Positions 5,895 through 52,511 of a stretch of DNA of 64,000 nt are shown here, piece by piece. Each line of letters begins with the position of its first letter. The first letter of the stretch is position 1. The DNA is from Lactifluus volemus. Taxonomy: Eukaryota; Basidiomycota; Agaricomycetes; Russulales; Russulaceae. The position numbers and the translations under genes are program-made. The stretch lies in NCBI GenBank assembly GCA_022376515.1, contig WTXI01000157.1:1-64000 (forward strand), read 5' to 3'. The notes under the pieces are model-generated. The model had not been told where the DNA came from. It did not search any database and saw nothing but the letters and a program-made list of their open reading frames with translations.

Positions 5895-7253
5895 ATGATG
5901 TCGTTACTCATCATCCTCCTCTTATTGTTATCTCTCTCAACTGTCTCGTGATGCCCTTCAGCTGGAATAAAGACGAAAAATATCTTGCCTATCTCCTCAT
6001 AGTGGCCTCCACAATCAGCGCATAGCACTCGAAAATGCTCTCGTCCTGGCCCGCATCCTTAATAGAACACTTCTCGTACCCCCTGCACGCTTGGGAAATG
6101 ACCTCATCAGCTATCACAAGTTCGATGATCTTTACAGCCTCCTGATTCACTCTCGAAAGCAGAGCTCACTTCATTGCTCGAACCTTCCCTCGGCTGTCTC
6201 TCCCCCTTCTGAGTGCTGGGACTACTTTGACTATACGTACGTTTCATGGGACTGGCTCGTCGATCTCTCCTCCGTCGCCGCCGAGCAACCGGCTTTTCAC
6301 CACGAGTCGTTTACCTATCCTTGGCTCGAGAACCCGCCCCCGATACTGACACGCTTAGGCTCAAGGATCAGACAGCGTATGATTTTCGTTTTGTTGATTA
6401 CACACCAGCACTCGATGCCGCACCGCACCCGCGCTACCTCGTCTCAATCCCAATCTCGACTCTTGTCACATCCAGTGCGCAGCTCATTCAACTCGGAACA
6501 CTTTTTGGGTCTTCCCGGCTGCACTTTACCGAGCCTGGCCATCTTGCCGCACGTACTGCGATCCGCGAACGCATGGCATTTGCTAATCCACATCTCCGCG
6601 CTGCATCATTGGCCGCTGCGAATGCCCTCGGTGGCCAGGATGCATTCCTCGCTGCCCACGTCCGGTTGTCGAACGGCCGATTCTGCGCTGCGCAGGCGCA
6701 GACGGTGCGCTCCATTTGGTACCACTGGTTGGGTGTGCATTGCGTCGTGTTAATGCCAGCGCGGGGAGCAACGCCGAGGTACATGCGCTCGAGCGTTTCT
6801 TGGTACCCACTAACGCTATTCTGCCTCTACCGCAAGAGACGACCATCGATTCCGTGTCGCCGCACGAATGCACATCCCCCGTGTAGCACCGGACCATTGT
6901 GCGGGGAAAGCACACAACGTTCACGAATTGGCCCCGCTGAACGTGCCGCTGTTCATCGCCACTGACATCGAAGATGCTCCAACGCTGGCGCCGTTGCGCG
7001 CGGCATTTCCCTGTACATTCCTACTGCGTGACCTAGCCGATGTTCCTGAGTGCGCAAGCTCGGCCATCTCGTCAGCGGAGAGGACGGAGTACGGCTTGGG
7101 CCATTTCTCGAGCCGCTCCTGGACGCGACGATTGCATCGCGAGCATGGGCGGTCGTAGGCACAGAAGGAAGCACGTTTAGCCGATATGTCGAGGACTTTT
7201 TGTGGCAGCGGGAACATGGGCGCCAGATTGTGAGCGTGGGTAGTTGGATCTGA
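5895..7253 (+). CDS. O-fucosyltransferase-like glycosyltransferase, frame broken
   Basis: The conserved block HSGLHNQRIALENAL-VLARILNRTLLVPPARLG is the N-terminal signature of GDP-fucose O-fucosyltransferase-like (PF10250-type) fungal glycosyltransferases. The C-terminal block PLFIATDIEDAP, FPCTFLLRDL, DGVRLGPFLEPLLDA and AWAVVGTEGSTFSRYVED matches the nucleotide-sugar-binding end of the same family. A hydrophobic leader starts at 5895 (MMSLLIILLLLLSLSTV), so the enzyme is probably a secretory-pathway protein acting on glycoproteins or glycans. No intron was needed. The frame must be restored at about 5995 (C run), 6337-6341 (C run), 6731 (G run), 6880 and 7047, each time for one missing base, plus at least one break near the leader. 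Either an error-rich sequence or a pseudogene; the donor sugar is inferred from family only. Confidence 0.65.
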
Positions 7254-11144: not shown

Positions 11145-13601
<2,457 letters not shown>

Positions 13602-18662: not shown

Positions 18663-19287
18663 TCAATGTGAATGGACAAAATAAGGGTTGTATCTCCCAA
18701 AAAGTGCCTCTCCCACTCCGAGGCCGATGACAACCGCAATGATGAATCCGATCTGAAACGTCCTGGGAAGTCAAGAAAGAGGGTCAGTTGTTGACATTGA
18801 AATAGATGCGAAGGACAACTCACATAACTGTAAGCATGAAAAGGATGTTGACGCTGGCGAGGACAGCCTGTATGATACCACGTGGGATGTCGTATGTAAG
18901 AACAAAGGGAGGTGTTGTGCGTCTTTGTGAGTCACAACGAGGCTGTGCAGCCTGAGAAGACGAAGTTTTACGCTTTTTGGGAGACGACGCCACAGACGAG
19001 TTATTGAAATTGTTTGCGAGGGAATCTGAGCACTGCATAACCTGTGCATGAGCAGAGCATGAAAGACAAATTCGAAGATCCAACCGTGTGTTCCAATGTG
19101 CCTCCATGACCCCCCGCATCATGGCCAACCACCGCTCCGCGATCGCAAGAATGAAAAGACCAATACAGGTCCCAACCATCGCACCCGTAGATCTGGGTGC
19201 CCAACCGAGAAACCAGAGGTTATCGCCAATGGTAAAATGGAGATAAGCTATCATATTGCCCATATTCATGGCCATTCCCTGGTCCAT
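18663..19287 (-). CDS. Ctr-family copper transporter
   Basis: Start ATG at 19287. The Met-rich N-terminus (MDQGMAMNMGNM) is followed by AYLHFTIGDNLWFLGW, then TM1 with GAMVGTCIGLFILAIAERW, the block that marks fungal Ctr proteins. A variable, Ser/Lys-rich cytosolic loop follows (KKRKTSSSQ), then TYDIPRGIIQAVLASVNILFMLTVM (TM2). After a 50-60-base intron the last exon gives RTFQIGFIIAVVIGLGVGEALFGRY, where GLGVG is the GxxxG helix-packing motif of TM3; it ends FVHSH at 18663. Ctr proteins form trimers that take up Cu(I) across the plasma or vacuolar membrane. Length about 185 residues is normal. A possible 43-base intron in the loop (gtt...cag) would change the loop frame, so its sequence is provisional. 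Confidence 0.88.
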
Positions 19288-22026
19288 GCATGCATGCCAT
19301 TTCCGTGGGCGAAAGCGCTGGAAACCAAAAATGTGAAGAGTAGAGATAATTGTGCGACGACATCATGGGGTGGTTACTGTTAGGATCGGATAACTGAGGT
19401 TTCGTGGGAACTCCATCACGAGCGCGAGTAAATAAGCGCAAACGGTGCGGCCCGAAAGCGGCCCGTGATTGTTTGTACTTAGTTACATACTCGAGAGTGG
19501 CGCACGTCCAGATTTCAGGAGGCGTTGGTCCGTGACAATTAGACAAGGCTAAGTTCCACATTACTGAGAAGGAGAGCGGGTTCCAGCTTCTCGAGTACTA
19601 CGCTCTCGCGTTCTCCGCTCGATCCATCATTAAGGGTTGGTTGAAGAGCAAGAGCGCCGCACATGTGAAGCTAGCTACGCGGGAGAAGGGCAAGGTTACG
19701 TTGAAGGGGAATTGACTGGCCAAGGAGCGTAATAGACTGGACCAGAGGGGAAATAAAACGATTGCCAGATTGACAGCGGTATAAATGCGCATTCTCGTAA
19801 TGAGCAGAAGTCAGGGATGAGGTACAGAGGAGAGGACGCCAGTTAGTGATGATGGTATTGGTCGCGCCATTTTTGCTCCAACGCGAGGCACTTTTGTGAT
19901 TGGTCCGGCGATGTGCAGTTTGGTTCCCATGCTGTGTTCAAGCAAAGTAATAAGTGTGTACACTGCCTTTGCTGATGTAATATGTATGTTTTCCTGCACA
20001 GCTATCTCAACGCATGATAATTCTGAGGGTACAAATCAATGAAACAATTACGCTCGAAGACAAAGGTGTTGCGTGCATGCATGAAAAAGCTTTCCGCGGA
20101 ACAGAACGTGATCGTGGGTAAGTTTGACAAAGATAGAACCTATGCCCGGACTGCCGGACCGAAACAATCGATCCGGAATCCGGATCCGATTGGAATCCCA
20201 TCCATCTCCATCTCATCGATGGTCGTGAGGTTTTGTTCCTACCAGAATCAAGGTTTATGATCAGTGCAATATTTCATGTCCAAGTTTGATGCCCTTATGC
20301 TGAGTTGGAAACTTATAACGAACCCTTAGATAGACGTTTCAGCCTACAACCACCTGATGTGCAAGTCATTCGGTTCACCGACTTATATACCCCCCCTTCC
20401 AAGTTTTTTCTCCACGGATCTGATGAAAATGCGCTACACGTGCATGGCTACAGTGTAGCGACCTTGAGAGGCACTCGTGCTTGTGAACCAGGTTTATTCG
20501 GAGTCGAACATTGCTATGCATAACCCAATACAATTTCTTCCTGCGATCGAGCCCATCTTCGGTGGCGCTTTCGGAACTCTGAACTAGCGAAGGACCGCTT
20601 CGTTTCATTTATGACACGTTGTTTTGCACCTGTCTCCGGGACTCCGCCCCGTTGATCCAAAATGAGCTACGTCACAGTTCGTGCATTCGAGTGAGTAATC
20701 GGAACCCGCCAGAATGGAGTTAGTGGACACTATTCACCGGAGCTCCTCCAGTAGTTTTTCTGTTCCTTGAACCGGAATCCTGAGAGCGAGAACTGAACAT
20801 TGAACGTCAAGCGCGTCTGTGAATACAGACAATCTCCAGTGATCACCGCGACGAATATAGTACAACCACCTTTTTTTTGTTCACTGCCGATATATTTGGC
20901 TCACGAACGTTATTGTAAATGTTTCGACCTTTGGCATGCCCACCTACACCCGCGGCACACGAGGGAGTCGCATAATTTATAGGCGCTAGCCGCTCCGATC
21001 GTTCGCCTCAACTGCAGGTACCAAGTCTCGAGATACAAGCGTGCCTCGGCATGTTTGGACTTTCATTCCGCGTGCCTTCGCAGCCACATGTTCTTGTGTT
21101 ATCGAATCTCGTAGGTTATCTGAAGCACTTGTACTGTAACCCTGATGTTGACCTGTGTATGATGGACGTATTGTACATAAAATATGGATCAGCTCTTCGA
21201 AACTAGGTACTAGTACCGTTGCCAAGCCAACCCTATCCCTGCAATGGGCCACTCAGATCGAACTTGTCAGCTGGCCCAATGAGTCTAACCGTCGTCAAAT
21301 TTGACCTTCTCCATCCCCCTATGATAGGCGATAGGTAAATGTTCCGGGATCAACGAACTCTCTTACTCTTTTTTTCTTGGGCGCGGTGGTTCGGCCGAGT
21401 CTGGTGGGTGCCCGATGAAACCGCGAAATTATCATCTCAGATTTGCCAGGTCATCAACTACCAAGGAGACTGCCCGTGGCCGCTAGCATTGCACCCCTGC
21501 CAGTGGTAGAGCTTGAATATATCCTCGGGGACAGAGGTGTAGCGCTCTTCCGACATATGTCTTGGCGCCATTGGTTGAACGTGTATGACAGAGTTGTGTG
21601 TCAGAGCGAACCAAGAGAACCACAATGCAGTGACGTTCGGTCGATTGCCGGAATATGTGAGCCCCAACCTAGGAGCTGAAATTTGCCGCATGACCGTGAC
21701 CGGCTGGTCCAGAGAATCGTTCAAGCAAGTCCGCTCCTCGCACATTGAAAAGCTGAAGCGTCTCACCACATGGAAACATAGAAACGTGTATATTAGATGT
21801 CTCCCGACCTGCGGGTGTGCTACTGCCACGTAGTATAACATATAGTAGAAAGATATGTATGAACTTGATAGCGGAGAAGTGAACCATAAACAGCAAGGGT
21901 GAGACACCAGCGCTCAAACCCATAAGTTAGCTTCGACTGCGTGGTGCTCTCAGCCTGTCGCATGAACCACGTTACCCTCATCAACACTCTTCCTATTTTT
22001 GGGTGAGCCACACATTTGGCGCATCA
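19288..22026. other. Gene-poor stretch
   Basis: About 2.7 kb with no frame I can support. A minus frame at 19598-19792 has a hydrophobic segment but no start context or homolog I know. The copper transporter promoter must lie in the first few hundred bases. Several short open frames at 21443-21923 overlap on both strands without motif. No tandem repeats or transposon ends were recognised. Confidence 0.35.
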
Positions 22027-25243: not shown

Positions 25244-28200
25244 TCACAGGGAAGTCGGTTCAGCTATGTCAGGTTTAAATCTGAGTCGAGCAAGTAGGAC
25301 CGAGTCCCATGGTTCAGAGGCGCCCTTGACCAACGACACATTGCTCGCGGTCACAGCGTCCATCATCTCTCGTTGAAAAGTCCCACTTGAAGGCTCCATA
25401 GATTCCTCTGCACACGTGAGCGTGAACTGGCCCCATGGTCGTCCAACGCGCGCTTGTGCGAACACATTAAAATTAACCTGTGCAAGCGCAGCCCAATTAG
25501 CGGCAACGTTAGGGAAAAGCGTCTCTGAAGCGAGCCTACCTGTCCGTCCTGGTGGTTGTGGCTAACGAAAGACGCATAGTCGGGGGCATCCAATGCTCCG
25601 ATTACTGGTAGACAATCACATGAGCAATGACACATAGCACGTTGGTCCGAGATATACCCAGAAATATATCCTCTCGCGTCAGACGCTGTTCTCCACTATA
25701 TATCTTCATAATGTGGTCGATGTTGGACTGAAACCATTTCTTTGGGACGTCCAAGTTCGTGATATAGCGATACATCGTCGTCTCGGTGTATATATATGCT
25801 ACCTTGTGGCCCGCCCGAAGCTGGAAAGAATGGGTACGGTTGACTGCTTGGCTGCCGGTTCGCGCGTAACAAGGGTTAAGGGATTAGTGTCATTGTGGAT
25901 AGATAGAGTCAGAAGGGTTGTACATACGAGGAGGAAAATAAACCTTGGACACGATCGAAGCTGCGCTGCGCAGCATTGCGCTTGTCCTGGCGTTGACTTC
26001 CTTGGTAAACCTTGCCGTAACCCAACAGCATCGGCAGCTCGTCTGCCTTACCATTCGATGTTGTGCCTGGATTGAATGCATTGAAGAGTGTTTCAAACCG
26101 ACCCTCCGGTTTTGACAGGAAGCCCACTGCGCCGAGCTCGACATGAGAAGGCTTCCAGAGCGGGAGCGTGACTGGGGGGGGAGAGAAATTACGTAATTTG
26201 ACACAAAGTTGTAAAGAAATACCCACGGATGGTGTGGTAATCATGCTGGAGAAGCATCCTGTACCGTCGCTCATCGCTGTGCTTTGCAGAAATACTATTG
26301 CGATCCGGGTCACATAGGTAATCAGATGAAAGGATACTCTGGTAAAGGGATCCTTCCTCGGATGTCATGGTGTTCGTCGATGTTGAGATTGAGCTGGACA
26401 TCAAAGGTTCCTTAACTGGCGGGTCTACTCTTTCCTCTTTGAATGACGTAGTCACCCCAGGCTCGGTTCCATCATTTCCAATGTCCAATCCAAGTGCTCC
26501 GGTATGGTCTGGTAGCGGTTGTGGCAAGATGTCGGGTGAGCGATGAGGTGGACCTTGATTCTGCGCGGACCACTGGGCAAGTATTGATGACGGCGTCGGT
26601 GAGCCGGTGATTGGCGCGCTTAAGCCCTGTGTACTTCGCTCGGTACGTTGCTTCTTGATGTCACGCGCGATTTGTTCGAACGATGGTCGATTGGAAGGAA
26701 TAGTAGCCCAGCTCGCGCGAATCACATTCATGAGCGGGCTGTTAGTGAGAGGCGATGGCGGAAGTGATGGCCTCATATTCTCGACTGGTCATGGGCGAGT
26801 GTAGTAGGAATAAGTTTGAGGGCAACACAAAAAGCACAGAATGCAAAAGTTACTTACTCAACACAAAATGTCGCACAGCATTATCATCCATAAGCGACCA
26901 CGGTAACGCTCCCTTCGTTAAAATCTCGACGCAGCAAATTGAAAACGCATAGACGTCCATTTCAGCGGTTAGTGCCTGTGCACCTTGCATAAGTTCAGGT
27001 GCTTGCCAGCGCAGTGTTCCCCCTGGAGATAGGTGAGTCAAACGGAAAAACATATGGTGAAGTATGGAACCCACGAGGGAGCGGCGCGTGACTGATGCGG
27101 TATACCTCAGACTTCATTTCACTCTGGCCAAAGTCGGAGATGATGCAGCGCGTATCATCATCGACCAGTATGTTCGCCGCCTGAGTATGCGTTAGTTCCG
27201 GAAACGTAAGTCATAGTCAAGGAAATTTTACCTTGAGATCGCCGTGCAGCACACCTTCCCTGTGAAGATAAGCCATCCCCTTCGAAATTTCATGAATCAT
27301 CCTCAGCGAATCAACTCTTGCAGCTTCAGCCTCTGTCAGGCCTTTCAGGTACTTCACGAGGCTGCCTCTGGAATAATACTTGCTAACCTGTTCGTGTCGG
27401 GTCATGTCAGGAACCCGGAAGCACGTGACCAAAAAAAAGCTCACCAGGAACCATGGCGGTTCGCCGCTCGCACTTGATGCCCCAAGCAACTCGAGGACAT
27501 TTGGGTGGTAGAGCTTCTTCCAGATCTCAACTTCATGAACGAAAATCTTTCGGGGCGTCGTTTCTGCGAGAACCTTGATTGCGACGGTGTGCGCACGCCA
27601 AGATCCGCGATATACTTCACTGAAGAACCCAAGTCCAATTTTCGCCTCGAGGTCGACTTCGAATCGCGTGATCGTCCAACTTGGCAAGCCCAAATCTGCT
27701 CCGGTCGATAGCCTCCGCAGCGCATCTATCCCAGATTCGATAAACTCGCGGTCAAGCGTGTCCGCAGTACGCCGGTTCTCAGTATCATCGCCCCCCGAGT
27801 TGGTCGACTGCAGAGCCTCGGAGCGGAGAAGTAGTGGTGACTCTATGGGGCTCTCTTCAGCCTCGACCCTGTTGTCCTCAACGACGCGCTCAAGAGCCCG
27901 CTGCAGCGTCTTTATAGCCTCGGGCATCTCGCTACGCGCAATCTGCAGTACATCGATCATTTCTGCGTCGTCGTTCGCCGCGAGGGCCGCACGCATAACT
28001 TGTCGCAAGTCCTCTGCATCGTGCGCGCGATCTTGCTCATTCTGCGCAGATCGCAATGCATGGAGTGTCCTTTGGACGCTCTGGGGTGACGGGTGTATAG
28101 TAGGTGGCACGGTGGGTGGTAAAGACGGAAGGTCTGAAAGGTGTGAGAGTGTCTCGAGTAAACCCTGGGTTTCGTTTTGTCGCCGCAACTCATTGGCCTG

Positions 28201-29417
28201 GATTAACTTGAGCGTGCGAATTTGGATGGACAGCTGTTAAGGTGAGGGATGTCAACTCGAATGCCCCGAAGTGGGGTGAAAGACCTACCCCGAACGTTCC
28301 GAGTGCATCATTAAGGGCAGCATCACAGGACGAAATGGTGAACGCAATCTCGTCACGTCTCAAATAGCGCTTGAGGAAGGGGCGGTGGCCCAACTTGGTG
28401 AGGAAGTGGAGAACACCTTGAAAGGCCCTGCGGAAAGACGGGTCAGGTTTTAGATAAGACGTGCTACTTGTGGTATCGCACTCGTTAAGTTTCGAGATTG
28501 GCGCATTGAGTTCCTCAGCGACAGTGTACCCTGCGTCGATAATTTCTTCGCGGACAGATACCAAAATATCCGCGCAGCGTTCAGTCAAACGCAAAGATGC
28601 GAGACGGTTCGTCTGGGGAATAACCATTTCAGAGGTCCCCCAAAAGGGATCGGTTGAGTTTGGAACTCACTTCGACCATATCGACGGCCTCCCATATGTT
28701 CAATAAAGTATGCCCGAGAAGCTCCAACCCAGGGATGGGCGAAAAGCGCAAGAGGTCGACCCCGGCAAAGAGCACCTCGTGGGTAACGCCCGCCGCAGTA
28801 CCGAGGACACCGGCGACGGCTTCTACAACACGCTGTGGGCGTGTGAGTGATGACTTTAAGTTCGTAGGAGGATGTCGGGAGTGCAAACGTACAGAACGAG
28901 TATGAACGTATCCTTCGACCTGCTGTGGAGGCAGGGTCCGTTTGCGTTTCGAGTTCTCAGACCATGGACGAGGTGAATTCAACCGGTGGTCCAACCAACT
29001 AGACATAAGAGTAGAGGGTTGCTCCTTATCCGACGCGTAGCTAGCTTCGGGTGATGATTTCCTTGAAGGTGAGCGGGAGCGGGAGCGGAAGGATAAGAAT
29101 GAGGGGACGGAAGGAAGCAATGCCGTACTAGATTGGGGGGCGGCGGGAGCTGAGGTGACACGGGAGACAGGGATCAAGCCATCACGTAGAAGTGACGTGT
29201 CTGGTTGAGTAAGAGAGTGCAGCGGCGTGCGGCTGCGAGAAGGGGTCGGGGATGGAGATGGGGATTGAGGCCGGGATTGTGAATTGGGATTAAGTGGTGA
29301 AGGGGTGCGCGGTATGGAGGATATGCCAGTGGGATCACTGGGAGATGTTCTCGGGAAGGAGAATGGTATCGGTGACGATTTATCGACCGAGCTTGGAGAG
29401 AGCGAGTTCTGAGTCAT
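25244..29417 (-). CDS. MLKL-like protein: helical N-terminal domain, kinase, unassigned C-terminal domain
   Basis: About 1,000 residues from ATG 29417 in roughly ten exons. Residues 1-190 are Ser/Pro-rich and disordered. Next comes VVEAVAGVLGTAAG ... FAGVDLLRFSPIPGLELLG, then NRLASLRLTERCADILVSVREEI and FQGVLHFLTKLG ... LKRYLRRDEIAFTISSCDAALN, a helical bundle matching the MLKL-NTD/MCAfunc type of fungal proteins. A helical linker (QIRTLKLIQANELRRQ) leads to a TKL-like kinase: GLGFFSEVYRGSW, AHTVAIKVLAE, HGDLKAANI, ISDFGQSEM, GTLRWQAPE. The last ~230 residues (HVELGAVGFLSKPEG, QRQDKRNAAQRSFD, AYIYTETTMYRYI, LDAPDYASFVSHNHQDGQ, LLARLRFKPD) form a conserved-looking domain I cannot name. Lys, Asp and DFG are present, so catalysis is possible. 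One base is missing in the C run at 27019-27023. Role in regulated cell death is inference from architecture. Confidence 0.85.
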
Positions 29418-35267: not shown

Positions 35268-36394
35268 TCACCGTTGCGTCTTGTGTGAGGTCCAGCCGGG
35301 GACGTTTCCGGCAATAGCGTCCGGCTCAAACCCAAATAACTTCTTCTTTGGCGGTGGTGGCGCCATCATTGTATCTTGGGTGCGCAAGGGACCATGTCGG
35401 TGATTGTGCGAATGTTGAGACATGGGCGGGACCCAGGATTCATCCTCGTCCTCACCGGCCAGTTCATCCTCCTCCTCCTCTTCCTCTCCGTCCGGTGCAA
35501 GCTCGACGATGCGACTTTCGCATTTCACGAGTGACGTCCATCGGGATGGCTGCCGATGCGCACGCATGGACGGCGTGGATTCGCCATCAGACATCATCAT
35601 AGGAGAGGAGGGTGGATCGACCGGGGGGGAATGATCTCGTACCGGATGGGAACGATTCAGTGGATTCCACTGCTGCTGGGTCGTCGTCGTTGTCATGGGA
35701 GTTCCACGCGTCATCTGCTGTGGCGGTGGCTGGGGAAAAGCGGGCCGGGAGGGAGGGGACGACTCTCGGCGCTTGCGACCGTTGATGGGAGTGTCCTTTG
35801 TAGGTGGGCTACGCAGGGACGATGAGCGTCTTCGCGTCCAAGAACCGGGCTCTCCCGGCTGAGCTACGAACCGCGAAGCGACCACGTTCGAAGCGGTACC
35901 GGACGGCGCGACATGGGTGGATTCGAATGCGGCGGTGAGCTCGGCAGCATCGGAAGCTTCGGATATGGAGACGGTACGTGAGCGCGAAGAGCCGCTACCG
36001 CCAACTCTCTGCGGGGTGGGATGGTGGTTATTGTTGGTGTTGTGTTGTTGTTGTTTGTGTCACAAGGTGGGCCGCTACTCGCGCCGGTTTCGCTGACGAG
36101 CTTACCGGCATCATCAAGACCGTCGGCGCTGATGCTCTTGCGACGACCGCGCTGTCGCTCTCGTTCAATACCACGCCACATCTCTTCGGTCACGCCGAAG
36201 CGCTCGCGGCAGCGTCGCTCGTGGCGCGCGCGGGAATCGGGACGAGTTAGCGGTTTGTGACAGATCGCACACGGAGAGGGCTGGCCTCCATGTCTAGCGG
36301 TCTTGTTGAGGTGACGCGAGAGGTCACGAGGAGTACCGAATTGAAGGTTGCACTCGATACACTTGTACTTGCCATCAGACTCTGGGTCTTGCAT
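35268..36394 (-). CDS. C2H2-type zinc-finger protein
   Basis: Starts at MQDPESDGKYKC (36394; MIM at 36400 possible). The N-terminal finger is CIECNLQFGTPRDLSRHLNKTARH (C-x2-C-x12-H-x6-H; first H in SRH), followed by a second, CAICHKPLTRPDSRARHERRC (C-x2-C-x12-H-x4-C), then a basic region (RERQRGRRKS) that may be a nuclear signal. After a missing base at the G run 36013-36016 (plus strand) the frame continues GGSGSSRSRTVSISEASDAAEL, a long Ser/Pro/Gln-rich region, an acidic block (GEEEEEEDELAGEDEDE) and a C-terminal DVPG-like end at 35268. Likely a DNA-binding transcription factor of about 375 residues; the target is unknown. It is divergent from the TLDc gene with about 700 bases between. Confidence 0.75.
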
Positions 36395-36400
36395 GATCAT

Positions 36401-37101
36401 TTCGCGTATAGGGTAAAGAGAGATGGGGAGGAAGAGTAAAGGGAGGAGGGAGTTTATGGGGTGGGCGAAAAAAATAATATGGAGGGGAAAGAGGGAAATG
36501 GCAGGTGGACCTTATAAGCACCGCAAAGACAAGGATGCGCGCCACAGAGACCAAGTAGTATTAGGGCTACGAGTTTGTGGCCCGTTGAGTTGTATAAAGA
36601 CGAGGCCCGGTCGCATTTTGGATTTTGGGGATGGGCGATGCCATGAAAAAGCTTCTTTGAATGCCGTGTCCTTGGGCCGGGTAGGGGGGTTAGTGAGTGG
36701 TAGCGGTGTGTAGTACAACAAGGGGGGGGCGGTCACCGTGACTGTTCGATCCGTGCCTGCCGTGAGTGTTGCCGCTGCCCCGTTTGTGAATGATCATGTG
36801 GCGAACTCGATACACTGCCTCTTTGTTCTTCTTCACCCTTGTTATCCGATAGGTCCAGGCCATTTGCCATTTTTTTTTAAACATAAACATAAACATTAAA
36901 CCTGACAAAGTGCCTGAATCTGTCTCTGTCTGATTCCGCTATCATCGCGTGTACTCTCCCCCTCCAGCCTACCCTCAATCTCGGTTCCTATACACCCTTT
37001 TTTTTTTTGTTGGGTCTCCTTCTCAGAATGTGCGTTACATGCGTGCCTTCACTCACACAACCGAATGCCCACATTGTTGACCTTACACAGGCCTCACAAT
37101 C
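36401..37101. other. Bidirectional promoter region
   Basis: Separates the divergent zinc-finger and TLDc genes. Contains homopolymer tracts (T run at about 36868 and 36998, G run at 36721), which are common nucleosome-excluding elements in fungal promoters. No gene is visible. Confidence 0.45.
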
Positions 37102-45906: not shown

Positions 45907-47992
45907 ATGACTCTTCTCTACCCTGTGACCGTCGCTGCCCTAGCCGTGTTGTTATTCAGTTCAGCTTTTCACGCACTGGCATCCCAGTGTCGCAACGAGC
46001 CTGGGGACCCTGGCTATCCTACTGCCACGGATTGGTCTGCTTTGAACGACACAATAGGTGGCATGCTACTCAACGTCTTACCCTCTGCAGAGGCCTGTCG
46101 CGAATTGGCCTGCACAGAGGCTCAATGGGAAAGCGGCATTTTTCGACAGACCATTCCTGGGTCAATGAACTCTGTTGGTGTTCTGACTTGATCCCTTTAC
46201 CATTAATGACTTTATTTTTGGCACATTCAGTACAATTGGGAACAGGTAAAGTGTCTCAACCCTCATTGTCCTTTTTACCCTCTCAACTTGAAGTCCATCC
46301 TTGATAGGATTACAATCCTCCCGCTGAGCTATGCCTACGTAACGGGACTACGTGTGCGCAGGGACATGTCCCACTTTACGCGGTCAATGCTACTGCCGTT
46401 CAACATATTCAGGTTTGCTATCCTTCTATTCATCTGCGTCATGACCGCTTACCACTTTCTAGGCCGGGGTCCGATTTGCGAACACCTACAACTTGCGTGT
46501 TGCTATCAAATCCTCCGGTCATGATTATTTGGGTCGCTCCACTGCAAGACATTCGCTCCTCCTCTGGACTGCTTATCTGAAAAATACCGCATTTTCAGAA
46601 CAATTTTACATAGCGGGCGTAGACCAGGGACCCGCGGTCACTGTTGGTTCCGGGGTCGGCCTAAAAACTATGTACGCTGCGGCTAAGGCACAAAATAAGA
46701 TGTTTGTAGGAGGCAGTGCCGCCACTGTCTGTGCGGCAGGCGGATATACACAGGGTGCAGGACACTCCGGGTTCTCACCAATATACGGGCTTGCCGCAGA
46801 TAATGTTCTTCGTACGGTTTATTTCCAGTAAGCCCGGAAGTAGACTCAAGCCAAGCTCCAGAATACCGCGTCGTTCTAGCCAATGGCTCATTTGTAAAAG
46901 CCAACTCGGTCGAGCACTCAGACCGTACGCTCTCTGCGCATGTCTAGCATTCGTACCTCTCATTTCTTCACTTTCTCCTTTTAGTGTTCTGGGCTATGCG
47001 CGGGGGCGGCGCAGGTAGCTGGGGCGTGATCATCGATGCGACCCTTCGCACATTCCCCACTTTCAATGCAACTCTTCACACCGTGAATGTGCTAACGGAT
47101 ACGTTGGGCCAAACAGCCAATCTGATGACGACTCACGCTATGCACGTCAAGGACTGGGACGCGGTCAAGGCTGGGCAATACTTCTACCTCTCAGGATCAG
47201 CACTCAATACTAGCACCCTTGTCATCTCTACATTGTTTAAAGACCTAGACGGCAACGCTAGCAAGGCGCAGATGTCCCCCTTTCTGAACGATGCGAGGGC
47301 GCTTGGAGCTGTTGTCGAGAACGAGTCAACGAACACTGCGGTTGCCAACGATATTGTTGGATTGGCAGACGACGCGTCTGGGTTCAATCTCATTCTTAGC
47401 TCTCGCCTCATTCCTGCCTCCGTTTATCTCGATTCGCCAGGCAATGTCGGTGCTGCCTACAAGCAGATCCTCTCACAGGGTATCCCACAAATTCTTGGGC
47501 ACCTTGTCGCCGGCGGTGTGCTTTCCTTCCCTTTTTTTTGCCGCGCGTATTTGCCATGATTTATCATTCACGTAGGCCAAGTCGCCGCCAATGCCAATAT
47601 CAGTTCGGCCATCATCCCAGCATGGCGGTCAGCAAAGACCCATGTGGGTGTCATTTTTGGATGTTGAGAATCTCGGATCTGACACGTCTGACTAGATAAT
47701 TGCGACACAATCTTGGAACGATACGTTATCTGCAGCGGACGTACAGGCATTACGGAAGAACTTTACCGCATCAGTTGAACCTGTGCTCTCGGGGCTTGCT
47801 GGTGGTGCATCTAGCGGCAGTTATTCAAACGAAGGTGACGTGCTCGAGCCGAATTTCCAGATCACATTTTATGGTCCAAACTACTCCCGTCTTGAGCGCA
47901 TAAAGTCTCTCTACGACCCCAATGACCTTTTCATCGTTCCGACTGGAGTTCATAGCGAAAACTGGGATGCGGAGGGCATATGTAGAGTATAG
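45907..47992 (+). CDS. Secreted FAD-linked oxidase, BBE type, copy 1
   Basis: Starts with a signal peptide (MTLLYPVTVAALAVLLFSS). After CRNEPGDPGYP and DWSALNDTIGG comes the PCMH-type FAD domain: YNWEQ (small exon), CLRNGTTCAQG, then VRFANTYNLRVAIKSSGHDYLGRS, whose His is the likely covalent FAD site, VDQGPAVTVGSG, AGGYTQGAGHS and PIYGLAADNVL. The substrate domain begins FWAMRGGGAGSWGVI. The C-terminal BBE signature is FYGPNYSRLERIKSLYDPNDLF. About eight introns; all junctions keep frame, so the gene is intact. The Cys of bicovalent enzymes is not in the usual place. Such secreted flavoenzymes oxidise sugars, alkaloids or other secondary metabolites with O2. A close paralog follows in tandem. 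Confidence 0.93.
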
Positions 47993-50426: not shown

Positions 50427-52511
50427 ATGTTCACTCTTCTCCGCCCAATAACCGTAGCTGCCCTAGCCGTATCGTTATTCAACCCGGCTACTGTGCACGC
50501 GTGGTCTCGTTGTCGCAACCAACCTGGTGATCCAGGTTATCCTACTGATGCAGATTGGTCTACTTTGAACGCCACGATAGGTGGCAGGCTACTCAAAGTC
50601 GTACCCTCAGCAGAAGCCTGTCGCGAATTGGACTGCACGGAGGCCCAATGGGAAAGCAGCGTCTTTCGGCAGGCCATCCCCGGCTCAATGAATGCGGTTC
50701 GTTCATATTACTTCACATTTCTTGCCGTAAATGACCATTTTTTCGCATGTACAGTACAATTGGGAACAGGTGAGGCCTTCTAGGTTGTGTCATCACCTTC
50801 TCAATTCAAGCATGCCAACAGGATTACGGCCCTCCTTCTGAGCTCTGCTTACATAACGGAACCACCTGTGCGCAGGGAGACGTTCCCCTCTACGCAGTCA
50901 ACGCCACAGCCGTTCAATATATTCAGGTCTACTATTCTTCTAGCCCGCTGCATGGTGATCGCTCATCACTTTCTAGGCTGGCATCCAATTTGCAAACGCC
51001 TACAACTTGCGTGTTGCTATCAAATCCTCCGGTCATGATTATTTGGGTCGCTCTACTGCAAGACATTCGCTCCTCCTTTGGACGGCCTACTTGCGGAATG
51101 TCACCTTTGCAAACCAATACCTCATAGCCGGCGTAGACCAGGGACCTGTGGTTACTGTTGGTTCCGGAGTCCCCGAGAATATCATCTATGCTATGGCCAA
51201 GACGCAAAATAAGATGGTAGTAGGTGGCATTGCTGCCACTGTCTCATGGGCAGGGGGATATATCCAAGGCGGTGGACACTCCGCGATCTCACCCATTTAC
51301 GGACTTGGGTCAGATAATGTTCTTCGTACGTGGTTTAATTCCACCAAACTTGAAACTTGACTCAAGATCGGTTCCAAGAGTTCCGCGTTGTTCTGGCTAA
51401 TGGCTCATTCGTGAACGTCAACTCGGCTGAGAACCCCGACCGTACGTTTTCTGAAATGACCAGCTTTCTTATTCCTCATCTCTTTCTCTTCTAGTGTTCT
51501 GGGCCATGCGCGGGGGAGGCGCTGGCAGCTGGGGTGTAATCATTGATGCCACTTTTCGCACATTCCCCACTTTTAACATAACCGCCCACGCCGTGGAGAT
51601 CCTTACGGCTACCTTGGACCAGACGGCCAAACTAATGACGACACATGCCATGCACGTCGGGGATTGGGATGCGGTCAGGGCTGGCCAATACTTCTTCCTG
51701 GGGGGGTCAACATTCAATAGCACCCTCTCCGTGGCTACAATTTTCAAAGATCTCGACACTAATGCTAGCACGGCACAGATGTCCCCTTTCCTAAATGATG
51801 CAAGGGCACTGGGAGCTGTTGTCCAGAATGAGATCACGATAACTGCGCTCGTCAATGATGCTGCTGAAATCCCAGACGACACGTCTGGGTTCAATACCAT
51901 TCTTAGCTCACGCCTCATTCCCAACTCCGTTTACCTCAATGCACCGAGCAGCGTTGGTGATACATACAAGCAGCTCCTCTCAGAAGGTGTAGAATCAATC
52001 CTTGGACACCTTGTCGCTGGTGGTGTGTTTCGCCCAACATCTTCCTGTACTGCTCATTGATTTTTCACCTAGGTCAAGTCGCCGCCAACGCCAATATCAG
52101 TTCGGCAGTCATCCCAGCATGGCGCTCCGCGAAGGTCCACGTGAGCTCCCCTCCTTCCTTTGAATGGTCCGAGCGCCTTTCTGACACGTCTGGCCGGGCT
52201 AGTTGGTCGCAGCTCAAGATTGGAACGATTCTTTGCCTGCAGAGGACGTACAGGCCTTGCGGAAGAACTTCACGGCAAGGGTTCAACCCGTGCTGTCGGA
52301 ACTTGCCGGTGGTGAATGCAGTGGTAGCTACTCGAACGAAGCGGACGTTCTTGAGCCGAATTTCCAGGTCACATTTTACGGCCCAAACTACGCTCGCCTT
52401 GAGAGCATCAAGGCTGCGTATGACCCTGATGACCTTTTCATCGTGCCGACCGGAGTCCGTAGCGAATTCTGGGATGCGGATGGCATGTGCCAAGTATCGC
52501 CATCACCATGA
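50427..52511 (+). CDS. Secreted FAD-linked oxidase, BBE type, copy 2
   Basis: Tandem paralog of the gene at 45907 with the same intron positions. Signal peptide (MFTLLRPITVAALAVSLF), CRNQPGDPGYP, the tiny YNWEQ exon, CLHNGTTCAQG, IKSSGHDYLGRS (His for FAD), VPENIIYAMAKTQ, AGGYIQGGGHS, FWAMRGGGAGSWGVI and the BBE end FYGPNYARLESIKAAYDPDDLF, with stop at 52511. All splice junctions keep frame. Where copy 1 has Cys in TVCAAGGY this copy has Ser (TVSWAGGY), so that Cys is not a conserved flavin link. Differences cluster in surface and substrate-domain segments, so the copies may differ in substrate. Same secreted role as copy 1. Confidence 0.93.

Follow-up and report, generated by a model that had tools for sequence, protein, structure and literature searches.

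A conserved Agaricomycete gene of MLKL-like architecture with a putatively active kinase in Lactifluus volemus

Several described systems combine, or separately contain, the parts found in a gene that we analysed in a 64,000-nucleotide stretch of Lactifluus volemus DNA (assembly GCA_022376515.1, contig WTXI01000157.1, positions 1 to 64,000; hereafter, the window). Wheat Pm13, built of a helical bundle, a brace, and a kinase, acts in immunity, and resistance requires all three parts (PMC10951266). Among fungi, Wojciechowski et al. described basidiomycete MLKL-like domains in which an extra helix lies at the N-terminus and a short one between helices 3 and 4 (PMC9815663), a study of metazoan MLKL names a Basidiobolus protein as a fungal MLKL (PMC11476962), and MLKL-family homologues in early-diverging fungi were reported only in Glomeromycotina, where they occur with Sel1 repeats (PMC8778642). 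With respect to kinases, FslK is a fungal lineage of 241 members (six from Chytridiomycota, the rest from Agaricomycetes; extra domains in 16 only) that has been proposed to serve mushroom-specific processes (PMC3937382), and an earlier study noted that Laccaria has an excess of TKL kinases (PMC2838846). The L. volemus gene (25244 to 29417, minus strand) encodes a bundle, a linker, a kinase, and a C-terminal domain in one chain, an architecture that is conserved in its homologues. We consider it somewhat probable that the product is an MLKL-architecture, membrane-targeted active kinase that plausibly controls cell death in Agaricomycetes.

Gene structure and conservation

The gene lies on the minus strand, with its ATG at 29417 and its stop codon at 25246-25244, exactly where a first-pass annotation of this DNA had placed it, and its product contains all the peptides quoted there as well as the VAIK, HGDLKAAN, DFG, and APE motifs. 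Splicing was done by hand with GT-AG introns (51–76 bases each) and then checked against the homologue alignment, resulting in a corrected model of 13 exons and 1155 amino acids (aa). An initial 12-exon, 1173-aa model was dropped because it carried 18 residues absent from the aligned homologues. These residues correspond to an in-frame 54-base GT-AG intron (28481-28428) inside the N-terminal block, and an independent genome search also breaks at this position (matches 28615-28481 and 28435-28280); similarly, genome matches with the C-terminal query break near the C-terminal exon borders. The splice model and the full-length homologues rule out a frame artefact. Translation may start at a later methionine (MSSW), which would trim the low-complexity tail only. 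The bundle, kinase, and third domain of the first-pass annotation are present, but the third domain comprises about 258 residues (898-1155) instead of 230, and that account also lacked a low-complexity N-terminal tail of ~174 residues and a variable linker of ~130 residues between the kinase and the third domain. The features, in window coordinates, are as follows.

25244..29417 (-): whole gene, 13 exons, 1155 aa (29417-28893, 28832-28671, 28612-28482, 28427-28289, 28233-27445, 27387-27232, 27180-27075, 27022-26858, 26784-26227, 26171-25928, 25851-25658, 25604-25540, 25477-25244); hand-spliced, homologue-corrected, borders backed by genome matches
28893..29417 (-): exon 1, encoding the Ser/Pro-rich tail at the N-terminus (aa 1-175); low conservation (median identity 0.34, 87 homologues)
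28156..28832 (-): predicted MLKL_N-type helical bundle, ~aa 175-345, encoded by exons 2-4 and the first part of exon 5; from Pfam MLKL_N and AlphaFold helices of orthologue P0005
28428..28481 (-): in-frame 54-base intron within the bundle; from the homologue alignment and genome search
27655..28155 (-): brace-like helical linker, ~aa 346-512, containing low-complexity segments as well as the conserved stretch EMPEAIKTLQRALE; median identity 0.54 (120 homologues), P0005 helices
26657..27654 (-): protein kinase domain, ~aa 513-767; PK_Tyr_Ser-Thr 171.6 bits, catalytic residues in 121/121 rows
26267..26656 (-): variable linker, ~aa 768-897; median identity 0.24 (117 homologues), for the most part modelled as disordered in the orthologue, with low predicted local distance difference test (pLDDT) scores
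25247..26266 (-): uncharacterised C-terminal alpha/beta domain, ~aa 898-1155; median identity 0.56 (116 homologues), predicted fold weakly gasdermin/MACPF-like

A homologue search (7,993 candidates scored) returned 700 proteins at E <= 1e-3, and the details given here rest on the best 120 of these. The top homologue, from Gloeopeniophorella convolvens (a genus classed in Russulales), shows 72% identity with 100% coverage of residues 175-1173 in the numbering of the 1173-aa model, followed by proteins of Lactarius (68–70%) and Russula (67–69%), which we also take to be Russulales; the named homologues presumably represent several orders of Agaricomycetes. Given 700 homologues at this threshold, the best with complete coverage, the gene is an observation far beyond chance. 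Coverage exceeds 75% for every one of the four parts (bundle, linker, kinase, C-terminal domain) in 110 of 121 aligned sequences (query included), and median identity to the query is 0.54–0.63 for these four parts (bundle: 0.56, 118 homologues), 0.34 for the tail, and 0.24 for the second linker.

In the genome (62.4 Mb, 628 contigs), the bundle and C-terminal queries matched this locus alone, and the full-length query gave 43 matches, 10 of which are this gene and 33 of which lie in the query's kinase region at 26–35% identity. The search scores the best candidates only, so the single copy is a lower bound; on these matches, a multi-copy family in this genome was rejected. The locus is a conserved Agaricomycete gene of which one copy was found in its genome. 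As a separate observation, 150 kinase-domain matches are spread across many contigs, and many are paired or tripled with near-equal scores on different contigs, as expected from a partly duplicated (two-haplotype) assembly or from recent copies; the gene described here appears once.

Kinase, helical bundle, and C-terminal domain

The kinase domain matched Pfam PK_Tyr_Ser-Thr with 171.6 bits, and the catalytic K, E, D, N, and DFG-D residues are intact in all 121 aligned rows (a first census omitted 11 rows of low coverage, whereas the second took all 121). Based on these residues, the kinase should be active, which agrees with the earlier proposal of a catalytically competent enzyme, unlike mammalian MLKL. 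An animal-type pseudokinase was rejected because the catalytic residues are intact, and since this feature was looked for and found absent, we do not file the protein as an animal-type MLKL. The activation segment contains a conserved SEMKSE-x-YRIS stretch. Among PDB sequences, tyrosine kinases of Src/Abl type make up most of the 60 best matches. Residues diagnostic of tyrosine kinases are absent, the commonest patterns being HGDLK-x-x-N (116/121 rows), GTLRWQ(A/S)PE (119/121), and xxRP (93/121). FslK kinases are recognised by the absence of AARN, the absence of the first Pro of motif 2, and P replacing L/M at position 4 of motif 3 (PMC3937382). By its motifs, the domain appears to fit this mushroom-expanded lineage; the kinase first annotated as TKL-like is complete, and its class is refined to FslK-type motifs with Src/Abl-type PDB matches.

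For the N-terminal block, the Pfam MLKL_N profile (curated cut-off 27 bits) was compared with seven orthologues, five of which had been picked for a precomputed MLKL_N label. Scores were 29.3, 25.0, 32.3, 30.2, 27.6, 16.5 (the Russulales orthologue P0001), and 21.3 bits, i.e., four of seven above the cut-off, and the profile span matched was nearly alike in each (~10-128 of 142). In a sample of 40 orthologues drawn from the best 120 homologues, 27 matched MLKL_N at E <= 0.01, and 17 of the 120 carry a precomputed PF22215 label. When homologues were trimmed to the bundle (the profile uses 15 of 19 trimmed homologues, with pieces further shortened by hand), MLKL_N was matched by 15/15 pieces at E <= 10 (best 3.2e-9), and any other family was common to five at most. 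MLKL_N therefore appears to be the best-matching family for the bundle, a case that is carried by the orthologues. A genome-wide MLKL_N scan gave no match, a result that carries no information: four exons share the coding sequence of the bundle, and the control genomes gave no match either.

Structure was modelled with AlphaFold on orthologue P0005 (69% identity with the query across 1101 columns; mean pLDDT 76.7, predicted template modelling score 0.60), with 91 sequences used for the full-length model and 36 for the C-terminal model. The N-terminal block is predicted to form a helical bundle (P0005 helices 74-95, 97-100, 103-108, 110-115, 121-136, 142-166, 175-197, 200-205, and 207-259) that resembles MLKL as judged by helix order. 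Helices 285-321, 324-331, and 335-364 precede the kinase in this model and are brace-like in order only. The best 50 rows of whole-model fold searches contain kinases only, so MLKL is neither among them nor thereby excluded. The helical death-type block proposed in the first-pass annotation is supported by the MLKL_N matches across the family and by the predicted bundle; the two outcomes set beforehand as counting against it (no match to MLKL_NTD or HeLo profiles, or a non-helical fold) did not arise.

The C-terminal domain is conserved, as its appearance had first suggested (median identity 0.56 to the query over 116 homologues), and no counterpart to it was found in MLKL. A third domain known to Pfam was rejected, with no match above cut-off. 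The predicted fold of the C-terminal domain weakly resembles gasdermin/MACPF. The Pfam Gasdermin model, which may miss fungal or bacterial members, found no match at E <= 10 in any of 36 C-terminal proteins, nor did it match this genome; PADLOC found nothing in six C-terminal proteins. A C-terminal profile (12 of 19 trimmed homologues) gave chance-level rows only against PDB sequences and 32 pattern matches in prokaryote genomes, none of them confirmed. Hydrophobic-moment values for this domain are not diagnostic, and the gasdermin layout, an N-terminal pore domain followed by an inhibitory C-terminal part, is not that of this protein.

The domain may also exist as a standalone protein. In Steccherinum ochraceum (P0063/P0133; EIP91_006834 and EIP91_006836), a full-length member and a near-identical C-terminal domain alone lie next but one by gene number, either as a tandem partial duplication or as an assembly artefact. 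P0193, P0202 (Mycena metata), and P0162 (Laccaria bicolor) are divergent small proteins that have the C-terminal domain without a kinase or bundle in the available sequence.

Proposed mechanism and alternative readings

In the mechanism that we propose, the linker and kinase would hold the bundle back at rest. A cue from upstream, for which the C-terminal domain may be the sensor, would switch the kinase on, the activated kinase would phosphorylate itself (in the activation segment) as well as partners, and the freed bundle would oligomerise at the membrane, resulting in regulated cell death or in signalling at the membrane. The analysis establishes the gene, its architecture, its conservation, and the intact catalytic residues; the folds are predicted, and we infer that the protein targets a membrane, releases itself, and causes death. 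Several results weigh against an MLKL-type kinase that controls cell death. The corrected N-terminal piece of the query scored 17.3 bits with MLKL_N (E 0.0035), below the 27-bit cut-off, and the Pfam scan gave no MLKL_N row for the mis-spliced full-length model; 13 of the 40 orthologues fell short of E 0.01; the bundle profile yielded chance-level rows only against PDB sequences; and a simple hydrophobic-moment calculation, the values of which are not diagnostic for the bundle, gave no one standout membrane-attacking helix. In addition, many fungal incompatibility genes differ from this gene, which is strongly conserved and of which a single copy was found.

Because the gene is well conserved and one copy was found, a signalling role suits it no less well than that of a fast-evolving killer of the incompatibility type. 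This is the main rival to a death output, and we regard it as a serious possibility, if short of probable: the protein would be a conserved signalling kinase and no killer, with a bundle that only anchors or oligomerises the kinase at the membrane and a C-terminal domain that serves as a sensor or substrate adaptor (e.g., in hyphal growth, fusion, or fruiting). Full-length conservation in 110/121 rows, the one genome copy found, and catalytic residues intact in 121/121 rows are consistent with such a role, as are the mushroom-specific processes proposed for FslK (PMC3937382). However, the bundle superfamily is best known in animal, plant, and fungal cell-death proteins (PMC12881547), and the order of bundle, linker, and kinase is that of MLKL.

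An unlikely reading is that of a hybrid executioner, in which a C-terminal domain of divergent gasdermin/MACPF type would give the protein two membrane-attacking modules, with the active kinase as a switch. The weak resemblance of the predicted fold points in this direction; the Gasdermin searches and the domain order do not. Over 80% of the gasdermin genes of fungi have a protease gene next to them (PMC12881547), and no protease was found among the 10 window frames scanned, with neighbouring genes taken unspliced. More doubtful still is the fuller claim that one mushroom chain joins an MLKL-like necroptosis executioner and a gasdermin/MACPF-type executioner with an active kinase switch, so that neither a separate RIPK3 nor a protease would be needed. 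Least probable is a generic N-terminal helical bundle that matches MLKL_N by chance or convergence: the sub-threshold scores of the query piece (17.3 bits) and Russulales P0001 (16.5 bits) and the bundle profile without a PDB sequence match would suit it, but the near-constant MLKL_N span, the four of seven orthologues above the cut-off, MLKL_N as the sole family matched by all 15 trimmed pieces, and the MLKL-like helix order and adjoining kinase argue against it.

A conserved protein of MLKL plan with a predicted live kinase in Agaricomycetes would be testable in genetically tractable mushrooms, and could reveal whether a kinase of this type acts as the switch for the membrane module of its own chain, and whether basidiomycete cell death employs such a protein. 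If the third domain is gasdermin-like, two pathways usually held separate would meet in one protein.

Elsewhere in the window, two open frames on the plus strand (46948-47556 and 51455-52057) have a near-identical start (FWAMRGGGAGSWGVIIDAT...), as if they were a tandem gene pair; we take both to be FAD-linked oxidase-like, and the former has no Pfam match at E <= 0.01. Matches to a Ctr copper transporter (18823-19362, minus strand) and to a second protein kinase (12334-12873, minus strand) were found, together with matches below cut-off to an O-fucosyltransferase (5971-6750, plus strand) and a C2H2 zinc finger (35867-36511, minus strand).

Comparison with known systems

Fungal MLKL likeness as such and BaMLKL domains on fungal NLRs are already known, whereas the kinase-linked form was not found described: in the open PMC literature, subscription papers being largely outside the search, we recognised no description of an MLKL-type domain with a kinase in basidiomycetes. 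Animal MLKL shares an MLKL_N-type bundle, a helical brace, and a kinase-fold domain in the same order. However, mammalian MLKL is a pseudokinase whereas the kinase residues are intact here, and the mushroom protein is far larger, with a long tail, linkers, and an extra C-terminal domain of ~258 aa. Plant MLKL and Pm13-type proteins also combine an MLKL_NTD, a brace, and a kinase, but Pm13 has 476 aa (1155 here), its kinase belongs to the plant LRR_8B subfamily, and the available part of that paper describes no extra C-terminal domain for the Pm13 type (PMC10951266).

Gasdermins (bacterial, RCD-1, HET-Q1, and animal) are similar in size to the C-terminal domain and weakly resemble its predicted fold; differences are the lack of a sequence match, the C-terminal position, the kinase fusion, and the lack of a neighbouring protease in the scanned frames. 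FslK proteins are likewise mushroom kinases related to tyrosine kinases without the diagnostic residues, but the bundle and C-terminal domain present here are not mentioned for FslK in the text available, which gives extra domains in 16/241 only (PMC3937382).

Podospora PaMt2 (het-V) is a fungal MLKL-type domain fused to another module; its partner is a TUDOR reader and not a kinase, and it is an incompatibility gene of an ascomycete (PMC8229728). The BaMLKL/HeLo/Goodbye-type domains of NLRs also occur in Agaricomycetes and share the extra helix at the N-terminus and, ahead of the long last helix, a short one (200-205 in P0005), helix-to-helix matching with BaMLKL being our own and made by helix order. 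These published domains have been studied at the N-termini of NLRs (PMC9815663), whereas here a conserved gene links the domain to a kinase.
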